A stretch of DNA of 64,000 bases from Bolinopsis microptera (taxonomy: Eukaryota; Ctenophora; Tentaculata; Lobata; Bolinopsidae). The DNA lies in assembly GCF_026151205.1 (NCBI RefSeq), contig NC_087075.1:62001-126000 (forward strand), read 5' to 3'. The notes below the pieces were generated by a model that was given only the letters and a program-made list of their open reading frames with translations, was not told the origin of the DNA and made no database searches. Both the position numbers and the translations under genes were made by a program. Positions 4,627 through 64,000 of the stretch are shown here, piece by piece. The first letter of the stretch is position 1; each line of letters begins with the position of its first letter.

Positions 4627-4629
4627 TTA

Positions 4630-31372: not shown

Positions 31373-32079
31373 CCTCACGTCAATTTCAAGGCGGAATTAT
31401 TGCAATTTAGATTACCTGAGAGATGGCAGCTGCTTAATAAGGCAAATATTTGAAATTCAATTTAATGAGGGACTCAGTGCAAGCCGCATATTTGAGTATT
31501 TGGAGTCCACCCCTTGTTTTGTGTGTAAAAATAACTTTTAAATTGCGTTTTATTTGACAGACGTCTGATCACGGCAAGTCTCTCATTTAAACATTATAAA
31601 ACGATCAGGCTGATGGTGTGGTGATTGGCGGAGTGGTCTATATATATGATCTATATTCTATAATACTCTATATTATATATGTATATAATATCGTCTATAT
31701 ATATGTTCATAGTTCATACTAAAGCAGGAGGAGGCTGGGTATTAATGAAGTTTGAGGACTGACAGTAGGAATAGATGGTAGGAATCTTATTTTCAGATCG
31801 CTAAAACCTTGACGTCACCACAATTTGCAGGTAAAGTTCTCATGATTTATTGATACCGCAGAGCGGGGGCGTTAAGTTGAGGGTAATTTATAAGGCTTCA
31901 TGAATCCACCAGCTTAGTAATTAGATTGCTTGGGAGGTTAGATTGCAGCTACTATGTGGGGCTCAAACCATATTCGTTTAAATACTCGTCTACTTCCTGT
32001 TTACAAAGCTCAAGTTACCAATAGTTTATACCTTAAAAGCTCTATTTTGCACATACCCACACATTTTGTTAAACTGTCC
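31373..32079. other. spacer between minisatellites
   Basis: About 700 bp with an AT-rich centre (TATATA words at 31640-31700). No supported coding sequence. Confidence 0.4.
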
Positions 32080-35000: not shown

Positions 35001-36139
35001 ACTGGACACTATCCCGCTCGACTGTATTATCATTACTGGACACTATCCCGCTCGACTGTATTATCATTACTGGACACTATCCCGCTCGACTGTATTATCA
35101 TTACTGGACACTATCCCGCTCGACTGTATTATCATTACTGGACACTATCCCGCTCGACTGTATTATCATTACTGGACACTATCCCGCTCGACTGTATTAT
35201 CATTACTGGACACTATCCCGCTCGACTGTATTATTATTACTGGACACTATCCCGCTTCGACTGTATTATCATTACTGGACACTATCCCGCTTCGACTGTA
35301 TTATCATTACTGGACACTATCCCGCTCGACTGTATTATCATTACTGGAAACTATCCCTCTCGACTGTATTATCATTACTGGACACTATCCCGCTCGACTG
35401 TATTATCATTACTGGACACTATCCCGCTCGACTTTATTATCATTACTGGACACTATCCTGCTCGACTGTATTATCATTACTGGACACTATCCCGCTCGAC
35501 TGTATTATCATTACTGGACACTATCCCGCTCGACTGTATTATCATTACTGGACACTATCCCGCTCGACTGTATTATCATTACTGGACACTATCCCGCTCG
35601 ACTGTATTATCATTACTGGACACTATCCTGCTCGACTGTATTATCATTACTGGACACTATCCCGCTCGACTGTATTATCATTACTGGACACTATCCTGCT
35701 CGACTGTATTATCATTACTGGACACTATCCCGCTCGACTGTATTATCATTACTGGACACTATCCTGCTCGACTGTATTATCATTACTGGACACTATCCCG
35801 CTCGACTGTATTATCATTACTGGACACTATCCCGCTCGACTGTATTATCATTACTGGACACTATCCTGCTCGACTGTATTATCATTACTGGACACTATCC
35901 CGCTCGACTGTATTATCATTACTGGACACTATCCTGCTCGACTGTATTATCATTACTGGACACTATCCCGCTCGACTGTATTATCATTACTGGACACTAT
36001 CCCGCTCGACTGTATTATCATTACTGGACACCATCCCGCTCGACTGTATTATCATTACTGGACACTATCCCGCTCGACTGTATCATCATTACTGGACACT
36101 ATCCCGCTCGACTGTATTATCATTACTGGACACTATCCC
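32080..36139. repeat. 34-bp minisatellite, about 119 copies
   Basis: The unit begins ACTGTATTATCATTACTGG and ends CCCGCTCG. The first half (to about 34260) is practically invariant. Later units show single-base changes and a 35-bp form with an extra base (GCTTCG or CGACCT) at several places. Because 34 is not a multiple of 3 and the unit lacks stops in the needed phases, open frames of over 1,300 codons cross it; I do not consider these genes. Confidence 0.98.
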
Positions 36140-42311: not shown

Positions 42312-42470
42312 TAATATTACACTATATTTATTACATTATGTATCATTATCATTTTACTACTTTCATTACGCATCAATTCTTTATCATTTTACTACTTTCA
42401 TTACGCATCAATATTTTTCCTCTGTAATCTACCTTTTCTTATCGCACTGAGCTTGTGATTTATACTGATC

Positions 42471-44240
42471 ATGCGACGAAATTCTACACCTAATACCTCT
42501 ACACCTACATCATCCCAGAGGAAGAAACTAGCTTCTAAAGCTGCTTCTGAGTCAATCGCTGACTCAGAAGCACCTCCTATCGGTATGTTGGGGCTTGGGG
42601 TGTCAGGGAATTACACGTTTGCAGCAACAACATGCCTTCACTTGTTAAGCTTACTGCCTGCTCCCGATTTAGATTTTGAGTTCGAAAGACTCCGCCTCCT
42701 TTCGAAAAGTGCTACTAAAGCAAGCACAACGGACAACAAAATTTCTTTTTTACGGAAACATTTATTAGGCCAATGTGCCCTAGACGCTGACGAGACAATG
42801 AACAAATTAACTGCGAGTCTAAAACTCATTTCATGTACCGTTAATGAAGAGGTTGAGAAGGCGGTCAACAGCATCACGGAACGAGCCTGCACTGCGATCC
42901 AGGAAGTCTCTGAAGAGTCCAGGAAGCAGACCTCTCTCATCGTTGAAGCAGCTAGCAGTAGTTCTCCACAGACTCTCTCCCCTTCCGGTGAAGTAGAAAG
43001 TATACCTAACCCACCACCTCCGGTAAGATTTTTGGACTGTGACTTTGGTGAACTTTCTTTTGATGAAATCTACCGCGAGCTTGACTTTAACATGAAACAC
43101 CCGGGGGGCCGTTCAACGTCATATTTTGGCTCGGTACCTTACAGTTATGGCAGAACCAACCACCGTGCAACCCATGATAAGCCCTTGCCACCTGTCCTAC
43201 AGCGCATTTTTGATTGTTTGCATAAATCTGATCCTGACATTACCCCCACGAACTACACCTGCCTCTGTACTTACTATAAGGACGGGTCAGTTGGTATTCC
43301 ATTGCATAGTGACAGCGAATCTAGCATTGTAGAAGATAGTCTGATTTACACTGCATCATTTGGCTCTACCAGAATTATGAGAATGTCAACGTCGACAGGC
43401 CCTTTCGTTGAGCATAACATCCCGCTTGAGCACGGCTCTGTCTTTGCAATGTCTCGATCTGATCAGAACCACTGGCAGCACGGCATTGAACGTGATCCTA
43501 TGTTAAGGCAGCCACGAATCTCGTTCACTCTTCGCAAGTTGAAACAGCCTGATCCCACGGCCTTGCCAGCACCTGCAGCCCCTACTCGGGTCCCGCCTGT
43601 TGCACCACCTACACAGATACAGTCACCAACGTCCCGTCACTCCAGAGTCCTCTTCATTCACGACTCAATACACCGAGAAACACCAGAATGGCTGTTCGAC
43701 CAGATACCTGGCCACCGATGTCAAAAGCGCCTTAACTATCAACTAGTGAACTCACTGGAACATCAACATGAGTTCAAACATTCTAAAGCAGTCGTACTTT
43801 CCTGCGGCATTAATGACCTAGCTAGGTATGGGCAGTCGGCCAGGAGTCTTGCGGACAATTTCTGTCCCCGTTTTATAGACTCTTGTAACAATAACAAGAA
43901 TACCGAGTTTATGTTTTGTGCTTTATCTATGACTAAATTTAACTGGTTGAATGCAGAGATTGACGCTTTTAATATCATAATGTTGAACCTGGCTAAGGAT
44001 ATTCCAAATCTGAGTTTTTTCGATGCCCATGCCGTGATCAAGCGTGTTAACTCATACTACGTATGGGACCGCAACGACAGACATGGCATCCACTTATATC
44101 ACGAGGTGCAAAGGGTAATGGCACATGAACTTGTTAACTGCGTTGGCAAGTTATGTGGATCTGAACAGAGACGTCACAGGAACTGTGAGTGGCTCTATCA
44201 CCACAAGCCTAACAGTCTCTCCAGATATAACCGAAGCTGA
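42471..44240 (+). CDS. LINE ORF1: AlkB-like 2OG-Fe(II) dioxygenase fused to SGNH-hydrolase-like domain
   Basis: 589 residues. Residues 1-180: low-complexity N-terminus and a probable coiled coil (about 105-165). Residues about 190-360 match the AlkB fold: the GRSTSYFGSVPYSYG segment, YYKDGSVGIPLHSDSE with the iron ligands H279 and D281, WQHGIERD with the third ligand H337, and PRISFTLR with R349 and R355 spaced as in the 2-oxoglutarate-binding R-x5-R. AlkB enzymes remove methyl groups from nucleic acid bases. Residues about 390-560 look like an SGNH hydrolase: FIHDSI (Ser399; the usual G-D-S reads H-D-S), CGINDL (G446, N448) and DRHGIHL (H541, with His at the usual Asp position 538). SGNH esterase domains are known in ORF1 of some CR1/L2 LINEs. 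The AlkB part could repair or edit element RNA or cDNA; this is inference. Confidence 0.85.
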   Translation: MRRNSTPNTSTPTSSQRKKLASKAASESIADSEAPPIGMLGLGVSGNYTFAATTCLHLLSLLPAPDLDFEFERLRLLSKSATKASTTDNKISFLRKHLLGQCALDADETMNKLTASLKLISCTVNEEVEKAVNSITERACTAIQEVSEESRKQTSLIVEAASSSSPQTLSPSGEVESIPNPPPPVRFLDCDFGELSFDEIYRELDFNMKHPGGRSTSYFGSVPYSYGRTNHRATHDKPLPPVLQRIFDCLHKSDPDITPTNYTCLCTYYKDGSVGIPLHSDSESSIVEDSLIYTASFGSTRIMRMSTSTGPFVEHNIPLEHGSVFAMSRSDQNHWQHGIERDPMLRQPRISFTLRKLKQPDPTALPAPAAPTRVPPVAPPTQIQSPTSRHSRVLFIHDSIHRETPEWLFDQIPGHRCQKRLNYQLVNSLEHQHEFKHSKAVVLSCGINDLARYGQSARSLADNFCPRFIDSCNNNKNTEFMFCALSMTKFNWLNAEIDAFNIIMLNLAKDIPNLSFFDAHAVIKRVNSYYVWDRNDRHGIHLYHEVQRVMAHELVNCVGKLCGSEQRRHRNCEWLYHHKPNSLSRYNRS

Positions 44241-44869: not shown

Positions 44870-47800
44870 ATGGAACCCACTGTTACATCTGAAAACAAAG
44901 TCAAGATCAAATGTTCAAGCTGCAGCGGCTGGTGTTACTCTATTAGAAATATTCGCACATGCTCATGGTGTCAAAGTAATGTCCATGTCAAATGTTTTAA
45001 GGATAATTTAGGCTGTACGAGTTGCTGTGAAAGTATCATTCCTGGATTTCACGCAACCTACTATGAAATCTATGACGACTACAGTAAACTTAATAGTGAC
45101 ATATTTAATCCGTACGATCAGAATAGTCGATTTAATCTTATTGGCGACGCCATGACCAACGAAGAGCATCAAGATTCAACTTGGAGCAATATTTCATCTT
45201 TCCTAACTAGTTGTCAGTATAAACAACAACGTAACGTGAAAAAATCTACCTGCTCTCAACTTAAAACATTTTCTATGAACATAAGATCCCTTATTAAGAA
45301 TATAGATCAACTACGTGATGATATTGAGACTTATGATAAGTATGATATATTGTGTTTTAACGAAACTAATTGCACTTTAGGGAAATTACCGAACGGAATA
45401 AACGACGTTACCTTAGATGGATTTCATGAACCATTTATCCAGGATCCAATTCGCCCATCTGGAAAAGGTGGGGGGCTAGCCACTTATGTACACAAACGTG
45501 TAGTCGATTATGATAAAATTGATATTTTCACTCCAAACCCTGAACCAACTAATACTAGTGGCGAATTCCAATTTATCAAGCTCCATCAGTGCAAAGGATA
45601 CAACAGAACGAAAATAATTGGCAATGTTTACCGTTCTCCCGCTAGGAGACCTGAAGCGTTTCTAGAAATTTTCAAAAATACGCTGCACAACCTAGGGAGA
45701 CACACCCGTAAACATATGACGCTTCATGGAGATTTCAACCTTGATTTACTGAAGCACAGCAGCGACCAAGCATGTCAGAACATTATAGATATTGCGTCCT
45801 CTTACGGTTTTATTCAAATTGTATCACGCCCAACTCGCCTAACGGACCATAGTGCCACGCTTATTGACCACATCTACACAAACAATCTTGAGGATACAAT
45901 AAGCTGTAACGTCTTAACGACAGATATGTCTGATCACTTAGCAATAGTCACTACAATAAATCTTGATAACACGCCAACCAGCAGCTACCGCTCTGCGTCT
46001 AACTCACAAAATGTATCTCAAACTGAAACACGTAGATTTAACGACACCAACAATCAAAAATTCAGAGACTTAATTACAGATGAAAGTTGGTCAGAAATTT
46101 TTAACAATACCAATGATGCCAACGAACAGTTCAATAATTTAAATACGGCTTATAATAAGATTTACGAGTCTGCCTATCCCACAAAAAGACAATCACGAAG
46201 ACAAAATGAACGTGTTAATCCGAAACCATGGATGCTGCCCTGGCTCGAAGAAGCTATAGAACGTAAAAATGAGTCATATTATGATTTTGTTAAGGAACCA
46301 TCTGATAGTAACCGCAGTAAATATGACCGTCTGAAGAAGTTTTGTAATAAACACATCGATAAAGCTAAAAACAAGCACTTCAAAAAATTTTTTGAGCAAA
46401 ACAAAGAAAATTCTAAGAAGCAGTGGCAAATGATAAACAGTCTTCTTAATAGGAAAAAATCTAAACCTACTTCAATTAAACTGACTGACGAAGACGGCTC
46501 AATCAGCACTCCGGCAGCTGTAGCAGAAAAATTTAACGATTACTTCTCAAACATCGCTCCTAAAATTAAGTCTGAAATTAGTAGTAGGACCACTTTTGAT
46601 CCTGGTGGAACCCATAGCACACTTCGCAACGCCACTCCAAGTAGTATTTACTTAAAGCCAGTCACTGCCACAGAAATTCAGGACGTCATAAACCTGCTTA
46701 AGAATAAAGCCACACTAGACACTAAAATTGAACCTCTAAAAATCGCTAACAGCTGTCCCAGTTTTACTAGTGTACTAGCCCACGTTGTCAACAGTTCTTT
46801 TGAACAGGGGATCTTTCCACAGGCTTTGAAAGAAGCGAAGGTGGTCCCAATTCACAAAGGTGGATCTAAATCTGACATAAAAAATTACAGGCCAATATCT
46901 CTTCTTGCTTCTTTCTCTAAAGTATTTGAAAAGCTAATGCATAACCGAGTTATAAGTTTTTTAGATAAATACAGCATACTATGTGAAAACCAATACGGTT
47001 TTCGCCCGGGTAGGTCTTGTGAACATGCTCTTCTCAACGCAAAAGACACCATTCTTAATTCAATGTCTAAAAAGCAGGTAACTTTACTTCTTTTAATCGA
47101 CTTCAGCAAAGCTTTCGACCTTGTGGATCATTCCATACTCTTGCGCAAGCTGGACCATTACGGCATAAGGGGTCAAGCCTTAAACTGGTTTAAGTCATAT
47201 CTCACTAACAGGAAACAGTTTGTATCAATTGGCTCGTCAAAATCTTCAACCAACCAAATTTTATACGGCGTGCCTCAAGGGTCAATATTAGGACCTTTAC
47301 TTTTTATAATCTACATAAACGACCTACCTCAAATATCAGATATAGCAAATTTCATTATGTACGCAGATGATGCCAACATCTTCCTGATAGGAGAAAATCT
47401 TAATGAAGTTTACGATAAACTAATAACTCTTAGCGATGCTTTAGTTAAATGGGTAGATAATAATGGTTTAGCTCTCAACCTTAAGAAAACAAATTATATG
47501 ATCTTCTCTCGACAAAGAAATCTTAATTATCGTGATGTGGCAATTTCTGGTGTCACAATTGAGAGAAAAACAGAAGCCCGTTTTTTAGGAGTTATAATAG
47601 ATGATAAACTAAACTGGTCCCATCATATTTCTGCCATGAAAATGAAAATGTCCAGATACATAGGAGTCATGTACAAACTTAAAAAATATCTGCCTCTCGA
47701 AGCACGTCTTCAAATTTATCAAAGTTTTGTGCAGTCACACCTTAATTATTGCAGCCTTGTATGGGGTTTTGCTGCCAAGTCTCATATTGAATCGCTTTTT

Positions 47801-48343
47801 GTAAAACAGAAAATGGGCCTTCGAGCAGTATTACCTGGTTTCGTCAATTACTGGTACAAGGACGGTATCCCCCCAGCAAGTACCAAGTCTGGCTTTTATT
47901 CACATAAAATATTGACAGTACACAGTATCATTGTAAAGAACGCACTCATTTTAATGCATAAATTGAAAAACTTTCCTAATCTAGTACCATTGTCTCTCAA
48001 GAAAACAATTCCCAAAAGTGCACCATTATTTAATACTAACCTGGATTCTATTCTCACTACACAATGGTCAGAAAAGTATGGTCAACACCCTTACAACAAC
48101 TCAGTATTTTTTAAAGGTCCATTATTAGCAATAAACCGATATAATGTTGCAGCAACTTCCCCGCCTAGTCTATTTAACCTGAACATTTACAAAACTTGTA
48201 TAAAAACTATGCTCATCGATCAGCAAAATGAAAACATCGAAGACGATTGGCCTAATTTCATGTTATATTGTATAACAGGACTAAGAAAATCAAAGCGTAA
48301 CATAAACCAAAATGCCGATAATAACCTTGTCTCTACATCTTAG
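44870..48343 (+). CDS. LINE ORF2: zinc finger, APE endonuclease, reverse transcriptase
   Basis: 1,157 residues, uninterrupted. A PHD-like Cys/His cluster (CSSCSGWC, CSWCQSNVHVKC, CTSCC) lies at about residues 17-60. The APE-type endonuclease (about 135-360) shows SMNIRSL, CFNETNC, GNVYRSPARR, GDFN (287-290), LIDHIY and SDH (354-356), so all catalytic blocks are intact. RT shows KVVPIHKGG, YRPISLL, QYGFRPGRS, LIDFSKAFDLVDH, GVPQGSILGPLLFIIYINDL and YADD (831-834). The C-terminal region with SHLNYCSLVWG is typical of CR1/L2-like elements. The protein nicks chromosomal DNA and primes cDNA synthesis at the nick. The ATG at 44870 is the first in frame. It is plausibly active. Confidence 0.95.
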   Translation: MEPTVTSENKVKIKCSSCSGWCYSIRNIRTCSWCQSNVHVKCFKDNLGCTSCCESIIPGFHATYYEIYDDYSKLNSDIFNPYDQNSRFNLIGDAMTNEEHQDSTWSNISSFLTSCQYKQQRNVKKSTCSQLKTFSMNIRSLIKNIDQLRDDIETYDKYDILCFNETNCTLGKLPNGINDVTLDGFHEPFIQDPIRPSGKGGGLATYVHKRVVDYDKIDIFTPNPEPTNTSGEFQFIKLHQCKGYNRTKIIGNVYRSPARRPEAFLEIFKNTLHNLGRHTRKHMTLHGDFNLDLLKHSSDQACQNIIDIASSYGFIQIVSRPTRLTDHSATLIDHIYTNNLEDTISCNVLTTDMSDHLAIVTTINLDNTPTSSYRSASNSQNVSQTETRRFNDTNNQKFRDLITDESWSEIFNNTNDANEQFNNLNTAYNKIYESAYPTKRQSRRQNERVNPKPWMLPWLEEAIERKNESYYDFVKEPSDSNRSKYDRLKKFCNKHIDKAKNKHFKKFFEQNKENSKKQWQMINSLLNRKKSKPTSIKLTDEDGSISTPAAVAEKFNDYFSNIAPKIKSEISSRTTFDPGGTHSTLRNATPSSIYLKPVTATEIQDVINLLKNKATLDTKIEPLKIANSCPSFTSVLAHVVNSSFEQGIFPQALKEAKVVPIHKGGSKSDIKNYRPISLLASFSKVFEKLMHNRVISFLDKYSILCENQYGFRPGRSCEHALLNAKDTILNSMSKKQVTLLLLIDFSKAFDLVDHSILLRKLDHYGIRGQALNWFKSYLTNRKQFVSIGSSKSSTNQILYGVPQGSILGPLLFIIYINDLPQISDIANFIMYADDANIFLIGENLNEVYDKLITLSDALVKWVDNNGLALNLKKTNYMIFSRQRNLNYRDVAISGVTIERKTEARFLGVIIDDKLNWSHHISAMKMKMSRYIGVMYKLKKYLPLEARLQIYQSFVQSHLNYCSLVWGFAAKSHIESLFVKQKMGLRAVLPGFVNYWYKDGIPPASTKSGFYSHKILTVHSIIVKNALILMHKLKNFPNLVPLSLKKTIPKSAPLFNTNLDSILTTQWSEKYGQHPYNNSVFFKGPLLAINRYNVAATSPPSLFNLNIYKTCIKTMLIDQQNENIEDDWPNFMLYCITGLRKSKRNINQNADNNLVSTS

Positions 48344-52131: not shown

Positions 52132-54360
52132 TCAATCATTCGAGTGGCCTGCACCAATGAACTCCCGTTTGTGACGTATCATCTCCCTCCAAAGTTTTCG
52201 GTCACTAGCCATCTCGCTCGCTCCTTCTAGGTCTATGTCAGTGTTTCCTGTAAACGCTGCAGCATCTTCCAGCAAACATTTCATCCAGTTCTTTCTTGGA
52301 CGGCCCCTAGATCTTCTCCCATGCGCAGGGGTCCAGTTAAGCAGGTACTTAGGAAGCCTAGTGTCTGGCATTCTGGTGACATGGCCAAACCAACGCAGGC
52401 GGTTTGCTCCTATGAACGTCTCTACTGGATTTATCTTTGCACGCTCCAGCACTTCAGTGTTTCTAACCCGATCGAGCCATCTTATCCTAAGTATTCTCCT
52501 CAAGCAACGCTGATGGAACACCTCAAAGCGATGTAGCTGCTTTTTGGTTGTGTTCCAAACCTCACTACCATATAACAATATTGTCAAAACTGCTGCCTTA
52601 TAAATCCTGATCTTTGTATAAGACTGGATGTTGCGGTTTTTCCATATATTACTCAGTTGATTGAAGGCTCCGGAAGCTTTCTGAATCCTAGCTGACAGCT
52701 CACGGTCGATAGTACCGTCGCTGGAAATAATTGTACCTAAGTACGTAAAGTCACTAACTTGCTGCACTGGCGTGTCTTCAACAGTGATGTTCACTGTGGC
52801 TTCTTTCGTGTATGGCCGTTGAGAGGTTGCTTTACCAATGACCATAGCCTCAGTCTTTTTACCATTGATTCTGAGACCTCCCTGGGCACCATACATACAC
52901 AAAAGGTCAGTTGTTTCTTGAAGACCTTCCTCGCTGTTATCCAGTACAGCCATGTCATCTGCATAGTCTGTATCTAACACAGTGATATCATCAACAAGCG
53001 GACTGATAGATCTTTGAAGAACCGCTCCGTGGGACACCACTTTGTTGCTTTCTGTTCTCTCAGCAGCCACATTGAGGCAGACATTAAAAAGTGGGGGACC
53101 CTGAATGTCTCCTTGGCCACTGCCTGAACTTACTTCAAACCATTCTGATAGTTCACCATTGTGTCTAACAGCACTGACAGTTCCATTAAAGAATGCCTGT
53201 ATTATTCGAATGTATTTACATGGCAGGCCATAATGACTGAAAGCTTTCCAAATATAATTCCTGTCGATAGAATCAAAAGCTGCCTTGAAGTCCACAAAAT
53301 TTACATACAGGGGGAGATTATATTCAATGCAGTTATGTATAATAGTGCGGAGTGAATAAATCTGATCAATGCATGATCTGTTCTTTCTGAACCCACACTG
53401 ATTGTCTCGTAGCAAACTTTCCAAACCGTCACTCATGCGTTGTAAAATGATGATTTGATACAGTTTCGATGCTGTAGATCTTAAAGTGATCCCCCTATTA
53501 TTGGAGCAATGAGAGGTATCACCCTTCTTTGGTACAATTATCACGATGCCTTTCAACCAGTCGTCAGGCACTGCTTCTGAATTCCAAACTTTAGAGAACA
53601 ATTTCTCCATCCTATCCACAAGACCGCTTGCCCCATACTTTAACTGCTCATTAGAGATTTCGTCAATCCCAGCACTTTTGTGGTTCTTCAATTTTTTGAG
53701 ACAGTTTAAAATCTCAAGTCCAGTGGGTGGACCATCACCATCACCAAGATACGGAAAGCATGGAACCACTTCAAGATGGTCCAGGTCAGACAGATCCGCA
53801 TTCGTGGGAGGAGGGTTTAATAGCTCCGAAAAATGTTCTCCCCATCTCTCTCTCTGAGCAGAGGGATCAGCAATCAACTTCCCGGATTTGTCTCTTACAG
53901 CAGTTGATTTCCGATTCTTCTTACCGGACAGTGTTTTTATCCGTTGCCAGACTTCCCTTTGCCGGCCATGGACAGCAGCTGTTTCCAGATCTGCTGCAAC
54001 TCTAAGAGCCCAATTCTCGTCGTCTTTCCTGCAGCTCTTTTTGACAAGTTTGTTGGCTTGAGAATACTCGCTCCTATTGTTTTTGTCACTAGGCGCCATC
54101 TGTTTAATCTTACTGCGTTCTGCAATAAGGCTTTTTGTCTCCTGAGACAAATGCTGCTGCTTTCTGCGCCGGGGGCGCTCACCCAGTACCTCCATAGACA
54201 CTTCTTTAATAGTATCCTTAACTAATGTCCATTCTCCATCAAGATTCTCCTCCATTGGTAGGCAGCTAAAACGATTTTGAAGAGCAATGCAGTACTCTTC
54301 AACCTTGGACTGATCTCTAAGATTCTCAATTGCTGGAGATTTCCTACGAGAGGCGTTCAT
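52132..54360 (-). CDS. RTE-like reverse transcriptase
   Basis: 742 residues from ATG 54360. RT blocks: GIVIIVPKKGD, NRGITL, QCGFRKNRSCIDQI, VNFVDFKAAFDSIDR, GSGQGDIQGPPLFN and DYADDMAV with YADD at 466-469. The C-terminal part has TYLGTIISSDGTID, LLYGSEVWNTT, a zinc-finger-poor basic region and RLRWFGHVTRMPD...GRRSRGRPRKNW, usual for RTE-type and related LINE proteins. The ATG overlaps the stop of the endonuclease frame (ATGA). The first residues (SRRKSPAIENLRDQSKVEEY) look like the normal linker of a single EN-RT protein, so the split is probably a one-base loss in a run of A, or a translational coupling device. Confidence 0.9.
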   Translation of the reverse strand: MNASRRKSPAIENLRDQSKVEEYCIALQNRFSCLPMEENLDGEWTLVKDTIKEVSMEVLGERPRRRKQQHLSQETKSLIAERSKIKQMAPSDKNNRSEYSQANKLVKKSCRKDDENWALRVAADLETAAVHGRQREVWQRIKTLSGKKNRKSTAVRDKSGKLIADPSAQRERWGEHFSELLNPPPTNADLSDLDHLEVVPCFPYLGDGDGPPTGLEILNCLKKLKNHKSAGIDEISNEQLKYGASGLVDRMEKLFSKVWNSEAVPDDWLKGIVIIVPKKGDTSHCSNNRGITLRSTASKLYQIIILQRMSDGLESLLRDNQCGFRKNRSCIDQIYSLRTIIHNCIEYNLPLYVNFVDFKAAFDSIDRNYIWKAFSHYGLPCKYIRIIQAFFNGTVSAVRHNGELSEWFEVSSGSGQGDIQGPPLFNVCLNVAAERTESNKVVSHGAVLQRSISPLVDDITVLDTDYADDMAVLDNSEEGLQETTDLLCMYGAQGGLRINGKKTEAMVIGKATSQRPYTKEATVNITVEDTPVQQVSDFTYLGTIISSDGTIDRELSARIQKASGAFNQLSNIWKNRNIQSYTKIRIYKAAVLTILLYGSEVWNTTKKQLHRFEVFHQRCLRRILRIRWLDRVRNTEVLERAKINPVETFIGANRLRWFGHVTRMPDTRLPKYLLNWTPAHGRRSRGRPRKNWMKCLLEDAAAFTGNTDIDLEGASEMASDRKLWREMIRHKREFIGAGHSND

Positions 54361-55334
54361 TTTTTAAACTGAAGTTTGACTCTAAATTGACCCCGAACCA
54401 AATAATGATCGGAGCCAATGTCTGCACCCCTGCATGATCTTACGTCAAGTAGAGAGTGACTCCACTTGGTAGAAATACAGACATGGTCAATCTGATTTAC
54501 TCTGCGGCCATCTGGAGACTTCCAACTTCCTTTATGAATATCACGATGCTGGAAAAGCGTCCCACCGATTGTCAGTTGATGCAATGCACAGAAATCTAAT
54601 AGTCGAAGGCCGTTGTCATTTGATGAAACGTGAAGGGAATGCTTACCAATCACACCGGACCAAGCTGAGTTATCTTGGCCAATGCGAGCATTTAGATCTC
54701 CAAGTAAAAACTTCACGTCATGAGCTGGTAGTTCATCAAATGCCCCAGATAGCTGCTGATAAAAGTCATCCTTTACTCCGACTGCTGCATCCTCAGTTGG
54801 AGCATAAGCTATCACAATCGAAATGTTGATATGTCGACTGTGCAGCCTCGCTGCAAGAATACGTTCTGATATCGGACTGTATGAAATCAATGAATTTTTA
54901 GTCTTCTTCGAGAGGACTAAACCAACCCCTTGTCGTCTGTACCCATCACTTCTTCCTGAGTTAATAAAGAGGGACCCATCATCCAAGGTAACCTCACCAG
55001 TGCCGGGTCTGTGCGTCTCTGTCAGCCCCAAGACATCCATTTTATATGCTGACATATTCTGTGACAATTCATACAGCTTTGAGGAACTGCTCTCCAATGA
55101 TAACACATTCCACGTTCCCACATTAATGCTGTGTTTGATAAAGTTGCATGGGAGTGCTCTCCCCTTCTCCGGGTCCACATGAGTGATATGCTGTGAACTA
55201 ATAACACTGTTGAAATAAGGCGACTTCTTTGTTCTCATCTGCACACTGGGGTCCTTGCGGCTTTGCCCAGAGCACTTCATCCTGGCTACACCCCTCCTTG
55301 AACTCCGAGAGTCACTCCACTTTTGGTTATTCAT
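54357..55334 (-). CDS. RTE-like APE endonuclease
   Basis: 325 residues. APE-type blocks: VGTWNVLSL, LGLTETHRPG, RRQGVGLVLSKK, VIAYAPTEDA, LLGDLNARIG, NQIDHVCIS and GSDHYLVRG. All expected catalytic positions (N, E, D-x-N, SDH) are present. The first about 60 residues are basic and of unknown role. It ends in FKK followed by TGA inside AAAAAATGA, four bases from the RT start. It would nick target DNA; the separate RT frame below would then prime from it. Confidence 0.9.
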   Translation of the reverse strand: MNNQKWSDSRSSRRGVARMKCSGQSRKDPSVQMRTKKSPYFNSVISSQHITHVDPEKGRALPCNFIKHSINVGTWNVLSLESSSSKLYELSQNMSAYKMDVLGLTETHRPGTGEVTLDDGSLFINSGRSDGYRRQGVGLVLSKKTKNSLISYSPISERILAARLHSRHINISIVIAYAPTEDAAVGVKDDFYQQLSGAFDELPAHDVKFLLGDLNARIGQDNSAWSGVIGKHSLHVSSNDNGLRLLDFCALHQLTIGGTLFQHRDIHKGSWKSPDGRRVNQIDHVCISTKWSHSLLDVRSCRGADIGSDHYLVRGQFRVKLQFKK

Positions 55335-55659
55335 TGATGTTTCAGTAGCTATTTTAAGGTTGAAGGGTAGCTGGCCCCTCGAACCTGGTAGTTATTTATC
55401 GACCTTTATTGGTCTAGATCCATAGTTTTTTGTTGCACCTCATCTGTTTAAACTGGAATCACCCAGAACAGATTACTGTACTTAATAGTGGCACCTCGTA
55501 AAGGGTGTACTATGGTCATTGAAATAGGAGAGGTTATAAGTTACACGATCACTATTTCCTGAGATTATAAAAATCTCTTGCCACCTAATGATTATAGCAA
55601 TTTTTATTATATGTATAATATTCAGATTACTTGCTCTAAACTAACTATCCTAGCACCAG

Positions 55660-55765
55660 ATGGCACTACATTTAAATAACTCTGAGATGGTGCAGTACAG
55701 TGTTATCACCAGTAACTCTCTCTCCACCGTTCTGGGCATTTACACTGTTCTTAGTCTTATCGTGG
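55660..55765 (+). CDS. class A GPCR, exon 1 (N-terminus and start of TM1)
   Basis: First exon of a rhodopsin-family receptor, an integral plasma-membrane protein that signals through G proteins. ATG 55660 follows an in-frame TAG at 55651. The short extracellular N-terminus (MALHLNNSEMVQYSV) has one N-glycosylation sequon (NNS). TM1 begins at about residue 22 (STVLGIYTVLSLIV). The exon ends G|GTACGT in phase 1. Joining to exon 2 restores GLVGNVVVFW, with N40 the conserved N1.50. The ligand is unknown. The RTE element ends 75 bp upstream, so promoter sequence must lie in or beyond it, or a 5' non-coding exon exists (TATCCTAG before 55654 could be an acceptor). Confidence 0.85.
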
Positions 55766-58700
55766 GTACGTTATCATATTCATACCCCCAACCCCCATTA
55801 TTATTCATACCCCCAACCCCCATTATTATTCATATTTTTAGGTTTTGAGTCGATTTTTACTAAATCTTTACATTAATACCTACGAGAAGCAATAGATAGG
55901 TAGTGCACCCCCTACAATAGATAGGTAGTGCACCCCCTACACTAGATAGGTAGTGCACCCCCTACAATAGATAGGTAGTGCACCCCCTACACTAGATAGG
56001 TAGTGCACCCCCTACACTAGATAGGTAGTGCACCCCCTACACTAGATAAGTAGTGCACCCCCTACACTAGATAGGTAGTGCACCCCCTACAATAGATAGG
56101 TAGTGCACCCCCTACAATAGATAGGTAGTGCACCCCCTACACTAGATAGGTAGTGCACCCCCTACAATAGATAGGTAGTGCACCCCCTACAATAGATAGG
56201 TAGTGCACCCCCTACAATAGATAGGTAGTGCACCCCCTACACTAGATAGGTAGTGCACCCCCTACACTAGATAGGTAGTGCACCCCCTACAATAGATAGG
56301 TAGTGCACCCCCTACACTAGATAGGTAGTGCACCCCCTACACTAGATAGGTAGTGCACCCCCTACACTAGATAGGTAGTGCACCCCCTACACTAGATAGG
56401 TAGTGCACCCCCTACACTAGATAGGTAGTGCACCCCCTACACTAGATAGGTAGTGCACCCCCTACAATAGATAGGTAGTGCACCCCCTACACTAGATAGG
56501 TAGTGCACCCCCTACACTAGATAGGTAGTGCACCCCCTACAATAGATAGGTAGTGCACCCCCTACACTAGATAGGTAGTGCACCCCCTACACTAGATAGG
56601 TAGTGCACCCCCTACAATAGATAGGTAGTGCACCCCCTACACTAGATAGGTAGTGCACCCCCTACACTAGATAGGTAGTGCACCCCCTACACTAGATAGG
56701 TAGTGCACCCCCTACACTAGATAGGTAGTGCACCCCCTACAATAGATAGGTAGTGCACCCCCTACAATAGATAGGTAGTGCACCCCCTACAATAGATAGG
56801 TAGTGCACCCCCTACACTAGATAGGTAGTGCACCCCCTACACTAGATAGGTAGTGCACCCCCTACAATAGATAGGTAGTGCACCCCCTACAATAGATAGG
56901 TAGTGCACCCCCTACACTAGATAGGTAGTGCACCCCCTACACTAGATAGGTAGTGCACCCCCTACAATAGATAGGTAGTGCACCCCCTACACTAGATAGG
57001 TAGTGCACCCCCTACACTAGATAGGTAGTGCACCCCCTACACTAGATAGGTAGTGCACCCCCTACAATAGATAGGTAGTGCACCCCCTACAATAGATAAG
57101 TAGTGCACCCCCTACAATAGATAAGTAGTGCACCCCCTACAATAGATAGGTAGTGCACCCCCTACAATAGATAGGTAGTGCACCCCCTACACTAGATAGG
57201 TAGTGCACCCCCTACAATAGATAAGTAGTGCACCCCCTACACTAGATAGGTAGTGCACCCCCTACAATAGATAAGTAGTGCACCCCCTACAATAGATAAG
57301 TAGTGCACCCTCTACACTAGATAGGTAGTGCACCCCCTACAATAGATAGGTAGTGCACCCCCTACAATAGATAGGTAGTGCACCCCCTACAATAGATAAG
57401 TAGTGCACCCCCTACACTAGATAGGTAGTGCACCCCCTACAATAGATAGGTAGTGCACCCCCTACAATAGATAGGTAGTGCACCCCCTACAATAGATAGG
57501 TAGTGCACCCCCTACAATAGATAGGTAGTGCACCCCCTACAATAGATAAGTAGTGCACCCCCTACACTAGATAGGTAGTGCACCCCCTACAATAGATAGG
57601 TAGTGCACCCCCTACAATAGATAGGTAGTGCACCCCCTACAATAGATAGGTAGTGCACCCCCTACAATAGATAAGTAGTGCACCCCCTACACTAGATAGG
57701 TAGTGCACCCCCTACAATAGATAGGTAGTGCACCCCCTACAATAGATAGGTAGTGCACCCCCTACAATAGATAGGTAGTGCACCCCCTACACTAGATAGG
57801 TAGTGCACCCCCTACAATAGATAGGTAGTGCACCCCCTACAATAGATAGGTAGTGCACCCCCTACAATAGATAGGTAGTGCACCCCCTACAATAGATAAG
57901 TAGTGCACCCCCTACAATAGATAGGTAGTGCACCCCCTACAATAGATAGGTAGTGCACCCCCTACAATAGATAGGTAGTGCACCCCCTACAATAGATAGG
58001 TAGTGCACCCCCTACAATAGATAAGTAGTGCACCCCCTACAATAGATAGGTAGTGCACCCCCTACACTAGATAGGTAGTGCACCCCCTACAATAGATAGG
58101 TAGTGCACCCCCTACAATAGATAGGTAGTGCACCCCCTACAATAGATAAGTAGTGCACCCCCCTACAATAGATAGGTAGTGCACCCCCTACAATAGATAG
58201 GTAGTGCACCCCCTACAATAGATAGGTAGTGCACCCCCTACAATAGATAGGTAGTGCACCCCCTACAATAGATAGGTAGTGCACCCCCTACAATAGATAG
58301 GTAGTGCACCCCCTACAATAGATAAGTAGTGCACCCCCTACACTAGATTGGTAGTGCACCCCCTACAATAGATAGGTAGTGCACCCCCTACAATAGATAG
58401 GTAGTGCACCCCCTACAATAGATAGGTAGTGCACCCCCTACAATAGATAGGTAGTGCACCCCCTACACTAGATTGGTAGTGCACCCCCTACAATAGATAG
58501 GTAGTGCACCCCCTACAATAGATAGGTAGTGCACCCCCTACAATAGATAGGTAGTGCACCCCCTACACTAGATAGGTAGTGCACCCCCTACACTAGATAG
58601 GTAGTGCACCCCCTACACTAGATAGGTAGTGCACCCCCTACAATAGATAGGTAGTGCACCCCCTACAATAGATAGGTAGTGCACCCCCTACAATAGATAG

Positions 58701-60067
58701 GTAGTGCACCCCCTACAATAGATAGGTAGTGCACCCCCTACAATAGATAGGTAGTGCACCCCCTACAATAGATAAGTAGTGCACCCCCTACAATAGATAG
58801 GTAGTGCACCCCCTACAATAGATAGGTAGTGCACCCCCTACAATAGATAGGTAGTGCACCCCCTACAATAGATAGGTAGTGCACCCCCTACAATAGATAG
58901 GTAGTGCACCCCCTACAATAGATAGGTAGTGCACCCCCTACAATAGATAAGTAGTGCACCCCCTACACTAGATTGGTAGTGCACCCCCTACTATAGATAG
59001 GTAGTGCACCCCCTACAATAGATAGGTAGTGCACCCCTACAATAGATAGGTAGTGCACCCCCTACAATAGATAGGTAGTGCACCCCCTACACTAGATTGG
59101 TAGTGCACCCCCTACAATAGATAGGTAGTGCACCCCCTACAATAGATAGGTAGTGCACCCCCTACAATAGATAGGTAGTGCACCCCCTACACTAGATAGG
59201 TAGTGCACCCCCTACACTAGATAGGTAGTGCACCCCCTACACTAGATAGGTAGTGCACCCCCTACAATAGATAGGTAGTGCACCCCCTACAATAGATAGG
59301 TAGTGCACCCCCTACAATAGATAGGTAGTGCACCCCCTACAATAGATAGGTAGTGCACCCCCTACAATAGATAGGTAGTGCACCCCCTACAATAGATAGG
59401 TAGTGCACCCCCTACAATAGATAGGTAGTGCACCCCCTACAATAGATAGGTAGTGCACCCCCTACAATAGATAGGTAGTGCACCCCCTACAATAGATAGG
59501 TAGTGCACCCCCTACACTAGATAGGTAGTGCACCCCCTACACTAGATAGGTAGTGCACCCCCTACAATAGATAGGTAGTGCACCCCCTACAATAGATAGG
59601 TAGTGCACCCCCTACAATAGATAGGTAGTGCACCCCCTACAATAGATAGGTAGTGCACCCCCTACAATAGATAGGTAGTGCACCCCCTACACTAGATAGG
59701 TAGTGCACCCCCTACAATAGATAGGTAGTGCACCCCCTACACTAGATAGGTAGTGCACCCCCTACAATAGATAGGTAGTGCACCCCCTACAATAGATAGG
59801 TAGTGTACCCCCTACAATAGATAGGTAGTGCACCCCCTACAATAGATAGGTAGTGCACCCCCTACACTAGATTGGTAGTGCACCCCCTACAATAGATAGG
59901 TAGTGCACCCCCTACAATAGATAGGTAGTGCACCCCCTACTCTAGATTGGTAGTGCACCCCCTACAATAGATAGGTAGTGCACCCCCTACAATAGATAGG
60001 TAGTGCACCCCCTACAATAGATAGGTAGTGCACCCCCTACACTATATTAGTTAACAGCTCTGACCAG
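55766..60067 (+). other. GPCR intron 1
   Basis: Donor GTACGT at 55766, acceptor TCTGACCAG ending at 60067. Almost the whole intron is the 25-bp array; its start also has a 28-bp duplication of CATACCCCCAACCCCCATTA at 55783-55830. Confidence 0.8.
55890..60045. repeat. 25-bp minisatellite, about 166 copies, in GPCR intron 1
   Basis: The unit is ATAGATAGGTAGTGCACCCC followed by CTACA. Frequent variants: C or A at the base before TAG, GATAAG for GATAGG, and GATTGG. Variant order repeats: the stretch from about 58320 recurs from about 58945, a higher-order block of about 25 units. Unlike the arrays in introns 2-4, the unit has no match to the start of the next exon. Confidence 0.97.
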
Positions 60068-60233
60068 GTCTAGTTGGGAACGTTGTAGTATTTTGGACGA
60101 TAAACCGAATGAAGCAGAGCAATATAGGAATAGACCATTTCTCTAACATCTTGGTGCAGCACCTGGCCATCGCGGATGTTATGTACAGTGTTGTAGCGGT
60201 GATACCTGCTGCCTTTGTCCACTTTTGCAGAAG
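60068..60233 (+). CDS. class A GPCR, exon 2 (TM1 to end of TM2)
   Basis: 166 bp, entered in phase 1 and left in phase 2 (AG|GTATGA). It encodes residues 37-90: LVGNVVVFW of TM1, intracellular loop 1 (INRMKQSN) and TM2 with NILVQHLAIADVMYSV. D72 is the conserved D2.50, the sodium-site aspartate, within the canonical LAxAD motif, and P82 is a usual TM2 proline. It ends FVHFCR, just before extracellular loop 1. The acceptor is CTCTGACCAG. Confidence 0.9.
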
Positions 60234-61238
60234 GTATGAAAATCTATGTACAATCTGTAACGTATAATGTACTATGTATAATGTACACTTGTTGCAATTA
60301 TTAGTTTTTATCAAAATTCGGGTTCGGTACTCGTTGGCGTGAAACAGTGTGGGATTTGTCTCACACACAATTCCGGACCCCAACATTCCCTCTTCCTAAA
60401 ACAGCCCCCCCCCCCCCCCCCCCCATGACGACTGCCCCCACTAGGTGGCCGTTAGGAGACACCCCCCCCCCTATGACGACTGCCCCCCACCCACCCCCCC
60501 CCCCCCCCCCCATGACGACTGCCCCCACTAGGTGGCCGTTAGGAGACACCCCCCCCCATGACGACTGCCCCCACTAGGTGGCCGTTAGGAGAAACGAGAA
60601 ACCCCCCCCCCCCCCATGACGACTGCCCCCACTAGGTGGCCGTTAGGAGACACCCCCCCCCCCCTATGACGACTGCCCCCACTAGGTGGCCGTTAGGAGA
60701 CACCCCCCCCCCCCTATGACGACTGCCCCCACTAGGTGGCCGTTAGGAGACACCCCCCCCCCCCCTATGACGACTGCCCCCACTAGGTGGCCGTTAGAAG
60801 ACACCCCCCCTATGACGACTGCCCCCACTAGGTGGCCGTTAGGAGACAACCCCCCCCCCTATGACGACTGCCCCCACTAGGTGGCCGTTAGAAGACACAC
60901 CCCCCCCTGACGACTGCCCCTCTAGGTGGCCGTTAGGAGACACCCCCCCCCCCCCCCCCCATGACGACTGCCCCCACTAGGTGGCCGTTAGGAGACATCC
61001 CCCCCCCCCCCCTATGACGACTGCCCCCACTAGGTGGCCGTTAGGAGACACCCCCCCCCCCCCTATGACGACTGCCCCCACTAGGTGGCCGTTAGGAGAC
61101 ACCCCCCCCCTATGACGACTGCCACTAGGTGGCCGTTAGGAGACACCCCCCCCCCCCCCCCCCCTATGACGACTGCCCCCACTAGGTGGCCGTTAGGAGA
61201 CACCCCCCCCCCCCCCCCCCTGACGACTGCCCCTCTAG
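60234..61238 (+). other. GPCR intron 2
   Basis: Donor GTATGA at 60234. About 170 bp of unique sequence, then the exon-3-derived array to the last acceptor CCCTCTAG at 61238. Confidence 0.8.
60404..61238 (+). repeat. minisatellite carrying the exon 3 splice acceptor, about 15 extra copies
   Basis: Each unit (about 43-60 bp, varying by the length of a C run) reads ATGACGACTGCCCCCACTAG and then GTGGCCGTTAGGAGACACC and C7-C20. GTGGCCGTTAGGAGA is exactly the start of exon 3, encoding WPLGD after the split Arg codon. Every unit thus offers a pyrimidine tract, an AG acceptor and the first 15 coding bases. I count 15 such starts before the real exon at 61239. Confidence 0.9.
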
Positions 61239-61364
61239 GTGGCCGTTAGGAGATACCACCTGTTATATGTCTGGTATTCTGATCTACGTGCCCTTGGTTG
61301 CTGACATCCACTTCATCATGGCCCTTTCTCTTCACCGTTTCCTCTTCTGCTCTTCTCCTCTCAG
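61239..61364 (+). CDS. class A GPCR, exon 3 (ECL1, TM3, DRY-equivalent)
   Basis: 126 bp, phase 2 in and phase 2 out (CTCAG|GTAAGC). It encodes residues 92-132. WPLGDTTC is the typical extracellular-loop-1 W-x-x-G-x-x-x-C pattern; C99 is the conserved disulphide Cys 3.25. Exactly 25 residues later is R124 (R3.50) in the motif HRF, which replaces D-R-Y, and P131 is the usual P3.57. The spacing supports the splice model strongly. Loss of the acidic residue before Arg (His here) can alter basal activity in this family. Confidence 0.92.
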
Positions 61365-62857
61365 GTAAGCATTATACTATCCATCACTATACTATCGATC
61401 ACTATACTATTCTCATTATATATAATATAGATATCATGGGAAACTGCTTATCACAAACATTTGTGGAGTAGCTGAAAGCATTGTATTGTTCAGGTACGGG
61501 ATACTGGTAACTAGAAAGTAAGCATTGTATTGTTCAGGTACAGGATACTGGTAACTAGAAAGTAAGCATTGTATTGTTCAGGTACGGGATACTGGTAACT
61601 AGAAAGTAAGCATTGTATTGTTCAGGTACGGGATACTGGTAACTAGAAAGTAAGCATTGTATTGTTCAGGTACGGGATACTGGTAACTAGAAAGTAAGCA
61701 TTGTATTGTTCAGGTACAGGATGCTGGTAACTAGAAAGTAAGCATTGTATTGTTCAGGTACGGGATACTGGTAACTAGAAAGTAAGCATTGTATTGTTCA
61801 GGTACGGGATACTGGTAACTAGAAAGTAAGCATTGTATTGTTCAGGTACAGGATACTGGTAACTAGAAAGTAAGCATTGTATTGTTCAGGTACGGGATAC
61901 TGGTAACTAGAAAGTAAGCATTGTATTGTTCAGGTACGGGATACTGGTAACTAGAAAGTAAGCATTGTATTGTTCAGGTACAGGATGCTGGTAACTAGAA
62001 AGTAAGCATTGTATTGTTCAGGTACGGGATACTGGTAACTAGAAAGTAAGCATTGTATTGTTCAGGTACGGGATACTGGTAACTAGAAAGTAAGCATTGT
62101 ATTGTTCAGGTACGGGATACTGGTAACTAGAAAGTAAGCATTGTATTGTTCAGGTACGGGATACTGGTAACTAGAAAGTAAGCATTGTATTGTTCAGGTA
62201 CGGGATACTGGTAACTAGAAAGTAAGCATTGTATTGTTCAGGTACAGGATGCTGGTAACTAGAAAGTAAGCATTGTATTGTTCAGGTACGGGATACTGGT
62301 AACTAGAAAGTAAGCATTGTATTGTTCAGGTACGGGATACTGGTAACTAGAAAGTAAGCATTGTATTGTTCAGGTACAGGATACTGGTAACTAGAAAGTA
62401 AGCATTGTATTGTTCAGGTACGGGATACTGGTAACTAGAAAGTAAGCATTGTATTGTTCAGGTACGGGATACTGGTAACTAGAAAGTAAGCATTGTATTG
62501 TTCAGGTACGAAATACTGGTAACTAGAAAGTAAGCATTTTATTGCTCAGGTACGGGATACTGGTAACTAGAAAGTAAGCATTGTATTGTTCAGGTACGGG
62601 ATACTGGTAACTAGAAAGTAAGCATTGTATTGTTCAGGTACGGGATACTGGTAACTAGAAAGTAAGCATTGTATTGTTCAGGTACGGGATACTGGTAACT
62701 AGAAAGTAAGCATTGTATTGTTCAGGTACAGGATGCTGGTAACTAGAAAGTAAGCATTGTATTGTTCAGGTACGGGATACTGGTAACTAGAAAGTAAGCA
62801 TTGTATTGTTCAGGTACGGGATACTGGTAACTAGAAAGTAAGCATTATATTGTTCAG
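61365..62857 (+). other. GPCR intron 3
   Basis: Donor GTAAGC at 61365 and final acceptor ATTGTTCAG ending at 62857. The first 110 bp are unique, AT-rich with ACTATACTAT words; the rest is the 44-bp array. Confidence 0.8.
61478..62857 (+). repeat. 44-bp minisatellite of mini-intron plus 24-nt mini-exon, 32 acceptors
   Basis: Each unit is GTAAGCATTGTATTGTTCAG (20 bp, donor to acceptor) followed by 24 bases starting GTACGGGATACT and ending ACTAGAAA. The 24 bases equal the start of exon 4 and encode YGILVTRK when entered from exon 3. They keep phase from unit to unit. Acceptors recur every 44 bp from 61493 to 62857, 32 in all including the real one. A few units differ (GTACAGGATGCT, GTACGAAATACT). 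Read without splicing, a unit meets TAA directly after the lysine. Confidence 0.93.
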
Positions 62858-62976
62858 GTACGGGATACTGGTAACTAGAAAGAGAGCTAATTTCACTGTG
62901 GCATTTATTTGGGTATATTCCAGCTGCTGTTCCGTCATCACAGCCTTCAGCAAGGGAGAGGTCCACTTCTTTCCGG
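62858..62976 (+). CDS. class A GPCR, exon 4 (ICL2, TM4, start of ECL2)
   Basis: 119 bp, phase 2 in and phase 1 out (CCG G|GTTAGT). It encodes residues 134-172: YGILVTRKRANF completes intracellular loop 2 (SSPLRYGILVTRK across the joint, the standard P-L-R-Y form), then TM4 with W151 at position W4.50 in FIWVYSSCCSVITAF, and SKGEVHFFP entering extracellular loop 2. Its first 24 bases are what the upstream array multiplies. Confidence 0.9.
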
Positions 62977-63058
62977 GTTAGTAGTGTACTGATGTAGACA
63001 AAACTCTTGATTTAAATCGTTATCCTTATCTCTAGAGTAAGTCACCTCACTATTTCAG
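62977..63058 (+). other. GPCR intron 4, minimum extent to the first acceptor
   Basis: Donor GTTAGT at 62977. The first CACTATTTCAG acceptor ends at 63058, and the same acceptor recurs every 39 bp to the right edge. The true intron end may lie outside the window. Confidence 0.7.
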
Positions 63059-64000
63059 ATAGTGCTATGTGTAGAGTAAGTTACCTCACTATTTCAGATA
63101 GTGCTATGTTTAGAGTAAGTCACCTCACTATTTCAGATAGTGCTATGTGTAGAGTAAGTCACCTCACTATTTCAGATAGTGCTATGTGTAGAGTAAGTCA
63201 CCTCACTATTTCAGATAGTGCTATGTGTAGAGTAAGTCACCTCACTATTTCAGATAGTGCTATGTGTAGAGTAAGTCACCTCACTATTTCAGATAGTGCT
63301 ATGTGTAGAGTAAGTCACCTCACTATTTCAGATAGTGCTATGTGTAGAGTAAGTCACCTCACTATTTCAGATAGTGCTATGTGTAGAGTAAGTCACCTCA
63401 CTATTTCAGATAGTGCTATGTGTAGAGTAAGTCACCTCACTATTTCAGATAGTGCTATGTGTAGAGTAAGTCACCTCACTATTTCAGATAGTGCTATGTG
63501 TAGAGTAAGTCACCTCACTATTTCAGATAGTGCTATGTGTAGAGTAAGTCACCTCACTATTTCAGATAGTGCTATGTGTAGAGTAAGTCACCTCACTATT
63601 TCAGATAGTGCTATGTGTAGAGTAAGTCACCTCACTATTTCAGATAGTGCTATGTGTAGAGTAAGTCACCTCACTATTTCAGATAGTGCTATGTGTAGAG
63701 TAAGTCACCTCACTATTTCAGATAGTGCTATGTGTAGAGTAAGTCACTTAGTCACCTCACTATTTCAGATAGTGCTATGTGTAGAGTAAGTCACCTCACT
63801 ATTTCAGATAGTGCTATGTGTAGAGTAAGTCACCTCACTATTTCAGATAGTGCTATGTGTAGAGTAAGTCACCTCACTATTTCAGATAGTGCTATGTTTA
63901 GAGTAAGTCACCTCACTATTTCAGATAGTGCTATGTGTAGAGTAAGTCACCTCACTATTTCAGATAGTGCTATGTGTAGAGTAAGTCACCTCACTATTTC
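63034..64000 (+). repeat. 39-bp minisatellite carrying exon 5 acceptor and a donor, at least 24 copies
   Basis: The unit is GTAAGTCACCTCACTATTTC plus AG, then ATAGTGCTATGTGTAGA (17 bp). With the single G left from exon 4, the 17 bases read D-S-A-M-C-R. This fits the second-extracellular-loop cysteine (C177) that pairs with C99, so the bases are probably the exon 5 start. AGA|GTAAGT is a good donor. Read through, the unit is an open 13-codon repeat (DSAMCRVSHLTIS) until a 9-bp irregularity near 63745. The array leaves the window. Confidence 0.9.

Follow-up and report, generated by a model that had tools for sequence, protein, structure and literature searches.

Minisatellites spanning intron–exon borders in three consecutive introns of a receptor gene of the ctenophore Bolinopsis microptera

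A stretch of 64,000 nucleotides from the ctenophore Bolinopsis microptera (contig NC_087075.1, here C4, positions C4:62001-126000 of an assembly of 264.65 Mb in 232 contigs), hereafter called the window, contains the first part of a gene for a class A G protein-coupled receptor (GPCR). Introns 2, 3 and 4 of this gene are filled mostly with minisatellites in which each unit combines the end of the intron, the acceptor and the start of the following exon. Our analysis of the assembled sequence confirmed that these border-spanning arrays are real. They probably arose by ordinary tandem duplication and slippage across the borders, tolerated by splicing.

The GPCR gene has nine exons at C4:117660-131774. 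Exons E0 to E3 lie inside the window (Table 1), while E4 to E8, at C4:126237-131774, are located past its end. Conceptual splicing of the nine exons gave an uninterrupted frame of 397 amino acids, with AG and GT at eight of the eight introns, and the resulting protein matched the Pfam family 7tm_1 over positions 1–260 of 260 (E = 1.6e-25). The frame and the full-length match bear out the preliminary description of this DNA, in which the exon pieces had been assigned to one GPCR. Its relatives of solved structure include the adrenergic, histamine and adenosine receptors. The translation also displays what we take to be hallmarks of such receptors: a tryptophan in the first extracellular loop (ECL1), a cysteine pair and NPVLY, which resembles the NPxxY motif. 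A search of a set of 5.8 billion proteins, which apparently lacks animal GPCRs, returned 4885 candidates, none of them at E ≤ 0.001.

The three introns are 1005, 1493 and 1260 bp long. In intron 2, the unit consists of the end of the intron, a CTAG acceptor and the beginning of E2, with C-runs that vary in length from copy to copy, and the final copy continues into E2 itself. The units in introns 3 and 4 likewise contain the end of the intron and a CAG acceptor, followed by the beginning of E3 and E4, respectively. The exonic stretch shared exactly by unit and exon measures 15, 25 and 28 nt in introns 2, 3 and 4; of the 15–24 bases given previously, the lower value stands and the upper one has to be revised. 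For introns 2, 3 and 4, the opening 12 bases of the exon that follows were found 13, 23 and 30 times, respectively, inside the intron, as the preliminary description of units carrying the acceptor and the start of the next exon would have it; the same count was zero for each of the other five introns of the gene. When introns 2, 3 and 4 were each shuffled 500 times (first-order shuffling), 0, 0 and 2 of the shuffled versions, respectively, contained one or more matches. Most units in the window gene are perfect (22 of 32 in intron 3 and 24 of 31 in intron 4); the corresponding numbers in a second copy of the gene, described below, are 35 of 73 and 26 of 33.

Seven of the eight GPCR introns hold arrays. 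Three cross the acceptor deeply, one touches the acceptor, one touches the donor, and two are interior. In addition to the arrays in Table 1, there is an interior array of 37 bp × 17 in intron 5, an array of 19 bp × 6 in intron 6, the last copy of which ends on the acceptor with only 2 exonic bases, and an array of 31 bp × 48 in intron 8 that begins at the donor with 4 exonic bases. Intron 7 has no large array; only the final 16 bases of E6 are present in it once more, 44 bp downstream and not accompanied by the intron bases that follow E6. One gene thus displays several stages: one extra copy (intron 7), few copies, and tens of copies. The presence of interior, acceptor and donor arrays in the same gene shows that the process also acts away from 3′ splice sites, and the specificity for such sites that had been proposed is not supported in view of the interior arrays in introns 1 and 5, the intron 6 array with its mere 2 exonic bases, the donor array in intron 8 and the copy of the E6 end in intron 7.

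When the seven array units were compared, none of the 21 pairs showed clear kinship; the best pair, introns 3 and 4, was equalled by 12 of 300 shuffles. The view that the arrays have unrelated sequences is supported in that no relation is detectable, and the lack of a detectable relation among the units of introns 2–4 points to probably three origins. Among the units of introns 2–4, the one compared to the whole genome was the 44-bp unit of intron 3, and the 91 exact matches listed for it were all in the GPCR gene and its near-copies on C4. We considered introners, in which one family of elements occupies many introns, and rejected them on account of these two results. In intron 3, the left flank of the array (...GCTGAAAG) and the exon (...CTAGAAAG) have GAAAG in common at the duplication junction, as would be expected of a microhomology-mediated duplication.

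A near-copy of the gene is found at C4:658-688 kb, in a palindrome with arms that are 99.7% identical over 11.6 kb. In the right arm, the exons show 98–100% identity to their counterparts in the window gene; in the left arm, E2, which lies at the arm's end, is degraded (95%). This copy may be a paralogue or a misplaced haplotype, or may in part be artefactual. When the arrays were delineated with Tandem Repeats Finder, intron 3 had 78 units in the near-copy and 32 in the window gene, intron 4 had 33 and 31, and intron 8 had 19 and 48, respectively. In intron 5, the near-copy has one full and one degenerate unit, compared to 17 in the window gene. Such copy-number differences between nearly identical gene copies indicate that the arrays are young or unstable and are changing fast.

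The left arm of the palindrome (C4:652001-692000; loci L011–L014) enters C-rich sequence of degraded appearance, which may be a fold-back artefact of the assembly. If the palindrome at C4:652-692 kb with its degraded end is itself an artefact, the arrays might be suspected of being errors of assembly as well. However, the units are marked by substitutions at specific sites, and the second gene copy contains the arrays too, in different copy numbers, so that an artefactual origin has very little probability indeed. Related sequence was also seen on another contig (L046, C12:9203001-9212000), in three units of about 3,075 bp in direct orientation, each with a 96–100% identical piece of GPCR exon 7 and 2.6 units of the intron 8 array. 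From its sequence, this locus looks like a recent capture at the DNA level that was later multiplied in tandem.

Minisatellites at exon borders had been presented as unknown, but such structures have in fact been named “mirages” in amphioxus (PMC3087553, PMC3902484). Mirages are minisatellite duplications of intron–exon boundaries in amphioxus genes, with units of 10–160 bp, at both 3′ and 5′ boundaries, and many of them, though not all, carry AG/GT signals (PMC3087553). Further mirages were found in TnC and, in imperfect form, in PGBD5 (PMC3902484). The BflGb6 mirage has three and six units in two haplotypes, and BflGb9 is also listed; reverse transcription PCR (RT-PCR) suggested regular splicing of the mirage-bearing globin genes, there are data for Adh3 too, and mirages were described as possibly general in cephalochordates (PMC3087553).

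Judging from their units, the GPCR border arrays are mirages of the amphioxus kind and thus a structure already known in kind. They share with the amphioxus examples the tandem repetition of an intron 3′ end and an exon 5′ part (introns 2, 3 and 4), the AG acceptor inside the units of these introns, and the instability in length between gene copies (32 and 78, 31 and 33, 48 and 19, and 17 and about 2 units). At the 5′ border, where amphioxus mirages also occur, we observed the intron 8 array with just 4 exonic bases, the copy of the E6 end in intron 7 and, in the kinesin gene L061 described below, an array that starts exactly on a donor. Regular splicing of the mRNA, as suggested by RT-PCR in amphioxus, would be compatible with the intact 397-residue frame. 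Unlike in amphioxus, the GPCR arrays are found in a ctenophore, occupy three consecutive introns and comprise about 15–32 units (78 in the copy). We found no report of mirages in ctenophores in the literature searched, and as far as that literature extends, what is new is their occurrence in this group, the involvement of three introns in a row within a single gene, and the number of copies.

Related cases have been described elsewhere. In human segmental duplications, minisatellites with a mean unit of 30 bp occur at exon–intron borders, with 27 intron modifications (PMC2812944); like the GPCR arrays, they differ between recent gene copies. For 66% of these human modifications there is an alternative transcript in which the repeat is retained, and introns are newly created (PMC2812944). 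The duplicated segment in the potato gene RdRp extends across the boundary between intron 1 and exon 2 (PMC4974935), but this is a single duplication that made a new intron, in contrast to the long arrays within existing introns of the GPCR gene. In Cryptococcus, repeats change the intron content through slippage, unequal crossing over or conversion (PMC2395259); there, intron-bearing repeats were multiplied and introns were added, whereas the number of introns in the GPCR gene is apparently unchanged.

We propose the following scheme. In a genome prone to tandem repeats, template switching or end joining would duplicate a piece of 20–60 bp more or less anywhere. Exonic copies would be purged, and intronic or border copies would survive, the latter being tolerated because the mRNA does not change as long as the spliceosome selects the last acceptor (or first donor). 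Slippage or unequal exchange would subsequently lengthen and shorten the arrays, and their units would become homogenised. The last acceptor might be favoured among dozens through pairing across the short downstream exon with that exon's own donor (exon definition), although we offer this only as a suggestion. We infer the choice of acceptor, the initial duplication step and the tolerance by splicing from the gene structure. None of the upstream acceptors in introns 2 and 3 (0 of 13 and 0 of 23) yields a full-length protein; their use would ruin the protein and must therefore be rare if the gene works. The same would hold for most of the upstream acceptors in intron 4. A clear case in a ctenophore suggests that frequent tandem duplication is enough for minisatellites to arise across borders in any lineage, and the different stages of the arrays in this one gene provide a direct test case for intron growth and for the choice among dozens of near-identical acceptors.

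Alternatively, the arrays might be functional, forming a ladder of tandem acceptors from which receptor variants are made. This would be most plausible in intron 4, where 9 of 26 upstream acceptors yield a full in-frame protein of 410–553 amino acids; the unit length there, 39 bp, is divisible by three, and inserted units would appear as 13-residue repeats in the second extracellular loop (ECL2). However, the failure of the upstream acceptors in introns 2 and 3 does not fit such a role, and one intron 4 unit (window position 63739 on) has an 8-base insertion that breaks the frame. Moreover, the exon-derived parts of the units have more differences per site than the intron-derived parts, 0.017 compared to 0.005 in intron 3 of the window gene and 0.008 compared to 0 in intron 4, and the direction is the same in the second copy. 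We therefore regard a functional ladder as improbable. Introns 2 and 3 end in AG and are followed by exons that begin with GT, as if the introns had been gained by duplication of AGGT-bearing exon pieces (the Rogers model) and filled later; in addition, of the 105 GPCR matches in the genome, many sit in single long frames. The Rogers model requires the 5′ end of an intron to equal the start of the next exon. Introns 2, 3 and 4 begin with gtatgaaaat, gtaagcatta and gttagtagtg, respectively, but the next exons begin with GTGGCCGTTA, GTACGGGATA and ATAGTGCTAT, which makes an origin of this type more improbable still.

The placement of the arrays was compared to a random model, in which each ancestral intron has its present length minus the array and a unit may start anywhere that does not make it wholly exonic. 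Of the seven arrays, 1.29 would be expected to cross an acceptor and 3 were observed to do so (p = 0.11 for three or more), while for either border 2.59 would be expected (p = 0.21 for four or more). The assertion that the arrangement is not due to chance is thus not sustained by the basic count, whereas p falls to 0.03 and 0.02 under stricter counts. Several points weigh against duplication and slippage without regard to splice sites. When at least 15 exonic bases are required, 0.76 crossings are expected, and it is here that three crossings give p = 0.03; the value of 0.02 applies to four or more when intron 6 is taken as a fourth crossing. Five of the seven arrays at either border (introns 2, 3, 4, 6 and 8) give p = 0.05, and three consecutive introns exceed the model mean. 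The ancestral intron lengths in the model are guesses, the shared junction word is present in only one of the three acceptor arrays, and both the gene structure and the use of acceptors come from conceptual splicing. Overall, the placement statistics neither demand nor exclude a splice-site bias.

For comparison with other genes, we used five myosin-head stretches and nine kinesin stretches, which contained 42 of the 73 myosin matches and 44 of the 109 kinesin matches in the genome. Words of 12 bases from the first (or last) 60 bases of each homology match were sought upstream (or downstream). Words from the first 60 bases were repeated upstream in two of the 86 matches (L051 and L061), but a real upstream duplication of the exon start was present in only one of the 86 in these 14 loci (L061, a kinesin), a count that is blind to exons whose homology match starts well inside and in which some matches hold more than one exon. 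Nor are all 86 independent, since L056 and L057, and L058 and L059, look like duplicate pairs. At the other end, a word from the last 60 bases was repeated downstream, once, in one of 86 matches (L048), where it may span a true donor. The idea that acceptor duplications are everywhere was rejected on the strength of the single real case.

In L061 (C12:14833201-14837000), the acceptor and 57 exonic bases are present twice, with 2 differences, 158 bp apart, and a 21-bp array sits between the two copies. The 21-bp array (× 29.6) also starts right next to the donor of the following exon, so that it flanks the coding region on both sides, and a separate array (13 bp × 21.7) starts exactly on a donor. 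Acceptor-spanning duplication does occur in a second, unrelated gene, but not as a rule. Comparing three of eight acceptors in the GPCR gene to one of 86 exon starts gives p = 0.0016; we did not use this value as evidence, because the GPCR gene was chosen for showing the feature.

A process linked to 3′ splice sites (for example, R-loops or stalled replication at acceptors, combined with template switching) might make duplications preferentially there. The kinesin duplication, likewise at an acceptor, is consistent with this, as are the large arrays on three of the eight GPCR acceptors, with a fourth touched, and the lower p values of the stricter counts. On the other hand, both the GPCR gene and L061 have arrays at donors and in intron interiors, and the rarity of duplicated exon starts in the comparison set is not what such a process would lead one to expect. 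We consider it unlikely that replication- or transcription-linked duplication prefers splice sites and that introns in this ctenophore lineage grow from their own borders. If this were the case, mirages, which have so far been named only in amphioxus, would be a way in which animal introns grow in general and would feed the gain of introns.

Table 1. Exons and arrays of the GPCR gene in the window (window coordinates).
Feature	Position	Strand	Basis or remark
Exon E0, start codon to transmembrane helix 1 (TM1)	55660..55765	+	conceptual splicing, whole-protein Pfam match
Intron 1 array, 25 bp × 166, interior	55890..60041	+	stops 26 bp short of acceptor
Exon E1, TM1-TM2	60068..60233	+	conceptual splicing
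Intron 2 array, unit ~50 bp, ~15 copies	60407..61257	+
Exon E2, ECL1-TM3	61239..61364	+	conceptual splicing
Intron 3 array, 44 bp × 32	61476..62882	+
Exon E3, second intracellular loop (ICL2)-TM4-ECL2	62858..62976	+	conceptual splicing
Intron 4 array, 39 bp × 31	63033..64000, on to C4:126264 (window 64264)	+

Other arrays were noted in the comparison loci. In L051, an 8-bp array of about 240 copies (4361-6251) reaches the acceptor region of a myosin exon, and the homology match runs into the array. One kinesin intron of L059 contains two arrays (964-1292 and 1737-1845), one being the reverse complement of the other (ACATTAAGACA and TTAATGTTGTC); neither is present in L058, a locus of similar appearance. 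Within the window itself, there is a 34-bp array of 119 copies with 99% matches at 32079-36139.

The window also contains LINE-like open reading frames (ORFs) with endonuclease and reverse transcriptase domains at 23986-27219 (−), 44870-48340 (+) and 52135-55391 (−), the last of these elements being divided over two ORFs. An ORF of 593 amino acids with a 2OG-Fe(II) oxygenase domain (42459-44237, +) lies close upstream of a reverse transcriptase ORF. Elsewhere in the genome, there are 18 innexin matches; the one innexin compared had only Innexin-6 as a solved relative. Glutamate-receptor matches number 32, of which 22 are in frames of 400 amino acids or more. For one of these receptors (L053), a kainate receptor was the best match; for another (L054), the best solved relative was the ligand-binding domain of ML032222a, ahead of the listed receptors of mammalian type. 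ML032222a, from the ctenophore Mnemiopsis leidyi, led to an 80% identical place on contig C7. The assembly gave no match to COX1, nor any to the GFP family, the latter being a weak negative because the control was silent as well. The Hormiphora genome has 13 chromosomes, and 13% of it was called repeat by Tandem Repeats Finder (PMC8527503). In the present assembly, the listed GPCR, myosin, kinesin, innexin and glutamate-receptor matches are on contigs C1–C13, except for one on C162.

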